A stretch of 64,000 nucleotides of DNA, from the NCBI GenBank assembly GCA_001184205.1, contig LBMP01000008.1, positions 1-64,000 of the forward strand. Direction: 5' to 3'. Position numbers and translations under genes: made by a program. Shown here one piece after another: positions 9,097-10,559 of the stretch. The notes beneath the pieces are model-generated. The model was given only the letters and a program-made list of their open reading frames with translations, ran no database searches and had not been told where the DNA came from. The stretch comes from Desulfocarbo indianensis. GTDB lineage: Bacteria; Desulfobacterota; Desulfarculia; Desulfarculales; Desulfarculaceae. Every line of letters begins with the position of its first letter. The stretch's first letter is position 1.

Positions 9097-9240
9097 GGCT
9101 TTCCCCGCGTGTGCGTGGCGAGACTGCCCATCATCCTGGATTATGAACCTGGTTCAGTCAAGACGGGGGGAGACAGGCATATGGACAAGCATGCAAACAC
9201 AATTTATGAACATCGTATGTATGGTAATTCAAGTGTTTAC

Positions 9241-9291
9241 TTGACAATACCGTTCTCTTGCTTGACAATTAACTATAAATAACTTGACAAT
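9241..9291 (+). repeat. Three TTGACAAT direct repeats at 21-22 bp spacing, operator-like
   Basis: Exact TTGACAAT copies start at 9241, 9262 and 9284, that is two helical turns apart on the same DNA face, ending 20 bases before the GTG start of the HTH-ATPase-DUF4325 gene. The second and third copies are preceded by C or AC as well. TTGACA is also the sigma-70 -35 hexamer, but I find no well-spaced TATAAT-like box for any copy. Binding sites for the encoded winged-helix protein or another factor is the better reading (inference). Confidence 0.65.
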
Positions 9292-9311
9292 AAATAGCAA
9301 TAGGAGCTTAT

Positions 9312-10331
9312 GTGACTGACAAAGATGACATGTTACGCAGAATACTTACCCTGATCGATGAGAGTGGGAATGACGTCGCCAAAAGGGTTGCGCACGAGTT
9401 TGGCGTTTCCCGTCAAACTGCCAATACATATCTTAAAGAGTTGCTGAGTAAAAAACAAATCAGCGCGGAAGGCAAAACCAAGGCAAGGTTCTACAGCCTG
9501 GCGAACACCCAGCGCGAGGTGAAATCATATAACTGCGAGGGCCTGGAAGAAGACAGGGTATGGCAGGAGGTTTTTGCGCCGGTGGTGGCTGACTTGCCTG
9601 AAAACGTTCGTGACATATGGCGCTACGGGGTGACGGAAATGGTTAACAACGCAGTTGACCATTCCGGTTCACCTGGCGTGATAGTTACCGTTGAACAAAA
9701 CGCGCTTTACACTAAAGGATGGGTAATTGATGAAGGCGAAGGGATTTTTAACAAGATTCAGCGTGAATTAGGTCTGTACGATCCCCGCCAAGCCATCCTG
9801 GAGCTGGCCAAAGGCAAGCTTACCACCGATCCGGAACACCATACCGGCGAGGGTATATTCTTCACTTCCAAGGTTTTCGATAAATTTATAATAGTTTCCG
9901 GAACATTAGGCTTCATACATGTTGATGGGGACCAAGACTGGTTTTTAGAAAATTCTTCAGATGAACAAGGAACAAATGTGTCTATGCGTTTGTCCAACGA
10001 TAGTGAACGCATTCTGAAAAACGTGTTTGATGAATTCGCGCCGCCGGAAGAATTTTCGTTTGCCAAAACCATTGTCCCGGTGCGTTTGGCCCAATACGAA
10101 GGGGAAAAGCTGGTATCGCGCTCACAAGCAAAACGCCTTTATCAGCGATTCGAAAGATTCAGTAATGTCGTTCTTGACTTTGAAGGCGTTTCCGAGATTG
10201 GTCAGGCTTTTGCCGATGAATTGTTCCGGGTTTTCGTTTTGGAGCACCCAACCGTGGAGCTGATACCAGTCAAAACGACGGAAGCGGTTTCTCAAATGAT
10301 CAAACGCGCCCAGGCCAGAGCGGCTGAATAA
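9312..10331 (+). CDS. Winged-helix / HATPase / STAS-like DUF4325 regulator
   Basis: 339 aa. Residues 1-60 form a winged-helix DNA-binding domain (FGVSRQTANTYLKELL recognition helix). About 95-200 is a GHKL ATPase fold with N-box EMVNNAVDHS (E109, N113), G1 DEGEG (140-144) and HTGEGIFF (about 176). About 255-335 matches the STAS-like DUF4325 domain (VVLDFEGVSEIGQAFADELFR). No phospho-accepting His domain, so it is not a classic kinase; it looks like an anti-sigma-type ATPase and a STAS-like module joined to a DNA-binding head. The start is GTG with TAGGAG 5 bases upstream. Base composition is lower in GC than the neighbours, suggesting transfer. The TTGACAAT repeats just upstream suggest autoregulation (inference). 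Confidence 0.8.
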   Translation: MTDKDDMLRRILTLIDESGNDVAKRVAHEFGVSRQTANTYLKELLSKKQISAEGKTKARFYSLANTQREVKSYNCEGLEEDRVWQEVFAPVVADLPENVRDIWRYGVTEMVNNAVDHSGSPGVIVTVEQNALYTKGWVIDEGEGIFNKIQRELGLYDPRQAILELAKGKLTTDPEHHTGEGIFFTSKVFDKFIIVSGTLGFIHVDGDQDWFLENSSDEQGTNVSMRLSNDSERILKNVFDEFAPPEEFSFAKTIVPVRLAQYEGEKLVSRSQAKRLYQRFERFSNVVLDFEGVSEIGQAFADELFRVFVLEHPTVELIPVKTTEAVSQMIKRAQARAAE

Positions 10332-10559
10332 AGGGAAGGGATTTCTACAAGACCAGCCCGGACTTTGTGTTACTTGGGCCGCGCTTTCGTTTTTCTTTTT
10401 TTCATGTTTCTTCTCTGTTTTGACTCTTCACCAGCTTTCCCCAAGGTTTACAAGCGCCTTGCCCTGTGATAGATACGTGCAATTGGCCTTTTCCGGCCTT
10501 GCCGGAGTAAACCTTCGACCTTCCGCCGGGTTGCGCGGCGGTGATAAGCGTTTGACAAC

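Follow-up and report, generated by a model that had tools for sequence, protein, structure and literature searches.

What regulates, and is regulated by, a single protein that joins a winged-helix DNA-binding domain (wHTH), an anti-sigma-type GHKL ATPase and a STAS-like DUF4325 domain, and whose gene is preceded by three phased direct repeats? This question is raised by a locus in Desulfocarbo indianensis, contig LBMP01000008.1 (GCA_001184205.1), of which positions 1 to 64,000 of the forward strand, here called the window, were analysed. The reading favoured here, held with moderate confidence, is that of a solitary, horizontally moving autoregulator, whose wHTH would bind phased TTKACAA direct repeats at its own promoter and repress it, with its GHKL and STAS domains docking on each other. 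The analysis supports four components of this reading, namely the association of the repeat array with the gene, the domain homologies, the loss of a phosphosite and the mobility of the gene.

Domains of the regulator

The regulator gene (9312..10331, + strand) starts with a GTG at 9312 behind a Shine-Dalgarno-like AGGAG (9302..9306, +) and encodes 339 aa, in which the open reading frame, Pfam and structural models place a wHTH, a GHKL and a STAS-like DUF4325 domain. An AlphaFold model of the whole protein, built with 25 sequences, reached a pLDDT of 84 and a pTM of 0.80. The predicted wHTH covers residues 1-63 (9312..9500, +); it is weak by sequence, while the model shows helices and a wing, with a predicted recognition helix at residues 34-46 and the wing at about 54-59. 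The GHKL ATPase/kinase domain follows at residues 65-232 (9504..10007, +), where the HATPase_c_2 match lies under the Pfam cut-off (21.7 against 27.4 bits) and the modelled domain has a SpoIIAB/RsbW-type GHKL fold (Z 16.3 to SpoIIAB, rmsd 2.3, 133 residues). Its boxes are intact (N-box EMVNNAVDHS, G1 DEGEGIF, G2 HTGEGIFF), the N-box Glu and Asn are kept in every family member that covers the N-box, and in profile comparison the domain resembles VapK-type proteins (E 1.2e-7).

The C-terminal domain, residues 251-339 (10062..10328, +), belongs to DUF4325 (PF14213; 54.2 bits against a Pfam cut-off of 23, residues 272-324) and resembles VapS-type DUF4325 proteins in profile comparison (E 6e-6). 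When it was modelled alone (pLDDT 81), the top structural matches were nearly all STAS proteins, including RsbS (Z 7.2) and SpoIIAA (6.4); these Z scores are middling, and together with the VapS-type profile match the model assigns the domain to the STAS fold. Thus, the suggestion made from the sequence alone that anti-sigma kinase and anti-anti-sigma parts had been put on one DNA-binding protein is borne out by the SpoIIAB and STAS folds and by the VapK and VapS profile matches, and its description of the GHKL domain as one without a phospho-His agrees with the lack of any match to a Pfam histidine-phosphoacceptor domain in the 339-aa protein.

Other searches gave partial matches. Solved structures searched by sequence returned weak single-domain matches only, a viral structure library held no full-length relative, and none of the PADLOC models covered the protein past its wHTH. 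CasR/Csa3 and Ren-like identities were considered and rejected because these matches span the wHTH alone.

A phased repeat array upstream of the gene

Three copies of TTGACAAT, taken as candidate operator repeats, lie on the + strand at 9241..9248, 9262..9269 and 9284..9291, with start-to-start distances of 21 and 22 bp and with 20 bases between the end of the third and the GTG, exactly as the sequence-only reading had described; the first lies in the 12-mer TTACTTGACAAT (9237-9248, +). The + strand of the 64-kb window has no further copy and the - strand has none at all, against 0.24 per strand expected from composition. The 9-mer CTTGACAAT, common to the repeats, occurs three times in the 215-bp intergenic region, and any 9-mer reached this multiplicity in 1 of 5000 mononucleotide shuffles of that region. 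The phased pair is also unique to the regulator in the 5.1-Mb genome: a search for TTGACAA-N13..16-TTGACAA found no second pair beyond the regulator's array, and a 21-bp search that allowed two mismatches gave a single exact match, again the regulator's own array. A regulon read off such arrays was therefore rejected for this genome.

The array was then followed in homologues from genome contigs, Desulfobacterota genomes, the Nitrosomonas family and viral contigs, with TTKACRW counted as the core motif, an array defined as at least one in-phase core pair, and dinucleotide shuffles as the control. An in-phase pair was found in 30 of 41 non-redundant upstream regions, which are not all independent since near relatives among them share descent, as compared with a mean of 0.05 regions (maximum 1) in the shuffles. 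Arrays are kept at 35-47% protein identity and in unrelated flanks, and a check for the absence of the repeats before close homologues thus found them present across phyla and not at other genes. A phased pair preceded none of 237 other ORFs at the homologue loci and was found at none of 16 loci of unfused DUF4325. In eight Nitrosomonadales genomes the pattern is confined to just upstream of the homologue (about 300 bp upstream in L012), and whole-genome pattern searches find the array almost exclusively at the promoter of the regulator itself. About a quarter of the homologues, mostly divergent, have no recognisable array (for example L036, L080, L092, L091 and L094). For an out-of-sample check, 398 Pseudomonadota genomes supplied six new loci, of which two had clear arrays (L140, L142), one had two cores 42 bp apart (L145), one was weak (L143) and two had no array (L144, L146). 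Together, the association and the phase of the array argue that the gene and the repeats function together.

The cores are spaced by 22 bp (39 times), 21 bp (6 times), 43/44 bp (21 times) or 11 bp (twice), which are whole helical turns, and the 44-bp gaps are compatible with a degenerate middle copy. Each locus with an array has 2-5 in-phase copies, up to five being reached with one mismatch allowed, and conservation extends past the -35 hexamer to a [CG] 5' of the core and an A/T-rich stretch 3' of it. The arrays always lie on the coding strand: on the reverse strand of the 41 regions there were no in-phase pairs, and the 8 single cores there, against 7.7 in shuffles, indicate that there is no inverted partner. 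Direct repeats of this kind are unusual for a wHTH dimer. When the third base of the repeat was compared with the wHTH residues, the top co-varying columns of the protein alignment were 46 and 54, both in the wHTH, a pattern that is no more than suggestive and is confounded by descent.

Two loci depart from the common arrangement. In L012 a three-repeat array (L012:4643-4700) lies about 300 bp 5' of the gene and not adjacent to it, as if a segment had entered in between. In L037 a second TTGACAA array overlaps the stop codon of the regulator (G232:C107:19598-19627 and just after), has the 23 + 11 bp spacing of the upstream array of the same locus, and has no evident target downstream. Extra pairs in G226 were examined as a regulon and discarded, since some fall within ORFs or a repeated stretch and the others show no evident connection.

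These distributions bear on whether the protein acts in trans, with a wHTH that recognises lone TTKACAA sites too, for instance consensus -35 boxes in host or phage promoters, so that the array would be its autoregulatory site only. Regulators with an operator of their own usually have further targets, and the core is almost the σ70 -35 hexamer. On the other hand, L037 is the only locus examined with a second phased array near the gene, the D. indianensis genome has none, and single sites are too frequent for a sequence test; this alternative is considered rather unlikely.

Overlap of the repeats with a candidate promoter

The second and third repeats contain σ70-like hexamers, TTGACA-18-GACAAT, which match the consensus at 10 of 12 positions (9262..9291, +) and probably form the promoter, and the first and second form a similar pair by consensus match, TTGACA-17-GACAAT, also 10 of 12 (9241-9269, +). 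Of 56 later repeats in the homologues, 36 agree with TATAAT in at least 4 of the 6 positions, and their commonest hexamer is TACAAT. The repeats may therefore double as a promoter, as a candidate operator that overlaps σ70 elements.

One alternative is that the repeats are tandem σ70 elements and nothing else, each serving as a -35 and the next one as its -10, with the product not binding them specifically. Both pairs match at 10 of 12 positions, the 22-bp pitch suits the -35/-10 distance, TACAAT predominates in the later repeats, and such a promoter would be workable in any host given that σ70 is universal. However, two elements would be enough for a promoter, yet 3-5 in-phase copies are common; spacings of 11 and 44 bp (L037, L039, L033) are unsuited to one; the motif is wider than the hexamer, with other -10 registers such as TACGTT and TACAAA; and none of the 237 other promoter regions has an array. 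The alternative is accordingly regarded as very unlikely. The sequence-only reading had named a TTGACA-based promoter as an explanation that would undo its own, and this objection stands in part: σ70 pairs are present and probably coexist with an operator, but they fail to account for a copy number of 3-5, for spacings of 11 and 44 bp or for the extended motif. As these features are superfluous for a promoter, an operator overlapping a promoter is the preferred reading of the repeats.

Loss of the conserved phosphosite

A phospho-switch of the classical kind is recognised here by a conserved phosphorylatable Ser/Thr in helix 2 of the STAS domain; in CapS and VapS, Ser54 and Ser48, respectively, are phosphorylated or required for switching (Chambers et al., 2026; PMC13373217). 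In the regulator, the residue that aligns with the VapS Ser is Gln298 (codon 10203-10205) in the motif IGQAF. The aligned segment in the family reads IGQAF (31 members), IGQGF (6) or similar, with Ala or Gly directly after the Gln, and one member with IGPS has a Ser at the neighbouring position. Other DUF4325 proteins have FASPF here (VapS-type proteins; FASPFF in VapS) or SVSF/SISF (other unfused proteins). The Ser/Thr of SpoIIAA, CapS and VapS is thus missing in nearly all members, and the phospho-switch that an anti-sigma kinase next to a STAS domain would suggest is not supported. As Ser has been replaced by Gln/Ala, a classical phospho-switch is unlikely; the GHKL-STAS domain pair has been kept, and its phosphorylation chemistry appears, from the alignment, to have been lost.

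A phospho-switch could persist in another form, if the GHKL domain phosphorylated either a different Ser/Thr within the attached STAS domain or a separate STAS protein from another locus. The catalytic Glu/Asn of the GHKL domain is conserved and Ser269 and Ser271 of an SRSQAKR motif are nearly invariant, but this motif aligns outside the known phosphosite and no capS- or vapS-like gene adjoins the regulator, which leaves this possibility distinctly improbable and docking on a non-phosphorylatable STAS domain the preferred reading.

Horizontal transfer and gene context

The composition of the gene differs from that of its neighbours, as had been proposed, with 47.7% GC as compared with 59.7% for the next-lowest of 41 large ORFs and 63.5% for the window. 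In four relatives (G014, G015, G010 and G004; loci L129, L130, L136 and L137) the gene is absent and a short spacer joins the amidohydrolase and leuS flanks; these empty sites, in which the conserved flanks are joined without the gene, delimit a foreign insert of approximate extent 9163..10444 (+), between TCAGTCAAG (ending at 9162) and GGTTTACAAG (starting at 10445, leuS promoter). No convincing target-site duplication or terminal repeats were found at the insert, and a simple scan gave no intrinsic terminator 3' of the gene. In the tree, members from Desulfobacterota occupy scattered positions, and well-supported branches force at least two changes. The gene is uncommon: a homologue was found in 13 of 297 Desulfobacterota genomes, fragments included, and, at E 1e-20, in 7 of 398 Pseudomonadota genomes; searches of curated plasmid and phage collections with two different queries gave no matches. 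Copies broken by a frameshift or stops were seen in related genomes (G016:C99:21675-21994, G255:C43:5301-5600 and G208:C25:798-956).

The regulator gene is solitary, its neighbours vary between loci and none is a constant regulated neighbour; in the window it is followed by leuS, with no immune operon there. Elsewhere, homologues are surrounded by genes for phage tails, replication or integrase (L094, L077, L075, L084 and L093) or, in L052, lie between hsdS and hsdR of a type I restriction-modification system. The gene is therefore foreign and horizontally acquired, and is prophage or defence-locus cargo elsewhere; its description as transferable is upheld by its base composition, the empty sites, the phylogeny and the cargo contexts. 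In L018 (L018:286-4665), a 1115-aa HEPN_Swt1/DUF499 protein that matches PADLOC HmaC is encoded 19 bp past the regulator, and the two may form a regulated defence operon. Beside a Nitrosomonas homologue, two small ORFs (L009:3935-4647) resemble an MNT/HEPN toxin-antitoxin pair as judged by eye, the first with a weak match to PADLOC PDC-S09.

Such contexts could mean that the protein, carried by prophages as cargo, acts directly as an effector in defence or superinfection exclusion, and that the array only keeps its amount down until the cell is infected or its DNA damaged. The phage tail, integrase and replication neighbours, the position between hsdS and hsdR, the gene 19 bp before HmaC, the solitary state without a constant neighbour and the patchy occurrence with broken copies would all suit an effector. 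However, no nuclease or other effector domain was found in the protein, most chromosomal copies lie between housekeeping genes, and PADLOC coverage is limited to the wHTH, with no match in curated phages or plasmids. This reading is possible, if on the unlikely side, and a solitary autoregulator is preferred.

Proposed mechanism

From these observations we infer DNA binding by the protein's own wHTH, repression, gating by ATP or a signal, head-to-tail assembly and an output. The protein would be a single-chain derivative of the SpoIIAB-SpoIIAA, CapK-CapS and VapK-VapS pairs. Its wHTH would bind the phased TTKACAA direct repeats before the start codon and, as these overlap the σ70 promoter of the gene, would repress it; negative autoregulation is the simplest reading, by analogy with CapS at its own promoter. 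Since the STAS domain has no phosphorylatable Ser, the GHKL domain would most likely use it as a permanent docking partner that depends on the ATP state, and not as a substrate. Such docking between neighbouring protomers would keep the protein on DNA, and because a kinase:STAS contact is asymmetric, these contacts would build a head-to-tail row, which suits direct repeats of one 22-bp pitch and variable number. A signal, possibly ssDNA by analogy with CapK, or else the nucleotide state, would take the array apart, upon which the protein could accumulate. Since homologues are carried as cargo by prophages and lie in defence loci, the output may concern phage or DNA damage. The most specific form of this mechanism, in which an anti-sigma kinase and a non-phosphorylatable STAS domain form an ATP-gated head-to-tail filament on 22-bp-phased repeats that controls its own gene, as stand-alone prophage or island cargo with an anti-phage or damage output, would amount to a new class of autonomous transcription switch; it is put forward as a tentative proposal that is more doubtful than probable.

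Comparison with known GHKL-STAS systems

CapKS (controller of associated pathways) and VapKSC have been described recently (Chambers et al., EMBO J 2026; PMC13373217). In CapKS the kinase and STAS proteins are separate, CapK senses ssDNA, phosphorylation splits the CapS dimer, and CapS represses its own promoter; that paper mentions neither a single-chain form nor direct repeats, nor an assembly of the head-to-tail kind (PMC13373217). The regulator is like CapK-CapS in that an anti-sigma-type GHKL, a STAS domain and a wHTH make up one DNA-binding switch, which occurs close to restriction-modification genes and other genes of immunity. CapKS, however, consists of two genes, capK then capS, with the domain orders HTH-STAS-GHKL and STAS-wHTH, a phosphorylated Ser, palindromic TTAA operators and an adjacent immune operon, whereas the regulator is one protein of the order wHTH-GHKL-STAS, with no adjacent STAS-wHTH gene, no phospho-Ser, direct repeats and usually no downstream immune operon (the homologue of L018 is followed by an HmaC gene).

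VapKSC, a toxin-antitoxin system, is similar in its GHKL domain, which is VapK-type in the regulator, and in its DUF4325 domain, which is VapS-type (VapS structure 9Z7O). It differs in that the regulator has no adjacent gene for a PIN-domain VapC toxin and no separate VapS, has an added wHTH, and carries Gln at the Ser48 position. Several related arrangements were seen on the side. VapS-like DUF4325 genes occur in Desulfobacterota (L097, L099, L102, L103, L105 and L115); several of them are preceded by a VapK-like GHKL gene and followed by a PIN-like one, an arrangement like that of vapKSC operons. Unfused GHKL and DUF4325 genes of this phylum supplied the VapK-type and VapS-type proteins of the profile comparisons. 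In L108 and L116 a GHKL and a DUF4325 gene form a two-gene pair, marked by the motif S[VI]SF[FI]DEAF; the unfused DUF4325 of L108 matches 9Z7O (E 8e-7), and the pair is followed by a nucleotidyltransferase-like ORF, possibly an unreported VapKSC relative. One paper lists, for a Francisella prophage, a protein of 293 aa and next to it a following DUF4325 protein of 112 aa, which may likewise be an unfused pair.

The systems described in 2026 have two or three genes and rely on phosphorylation, so that a one-gene relative, marked by a conserved operator and a lost phosphosite, represents the same modules under a different control logic. DUF4325, scarcely mentioned in the literature searched, gains a testable role, and a short operator-plus-gene cassette makes ATP/ssDNA gating and direct-repeat cooperativity directly assayable.

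SpoIIAB-SpoIIAA and RsbW-RsbV share the GHKL fold and the STAS fold (RsbS/SpoIIAA) with the regulator, but are separate proteins with a sigma-factor target, a phosphorylated Ser and no wHTH. BldC of Streptomyces binds head-to-tail to variable numbers of direct repeats (PMC6428758), which is like the 2-5 copies seen here, where a head-to-tail arrangement would be the counterpart; it differs in having a MerR-type domain only, a short repeat pitch and no ATPase. With neither the gene arrangement nor the phosphosite of CapKS and VapKSC, the regulator is a variant of the GHKL-STAS switch that lies outside both.
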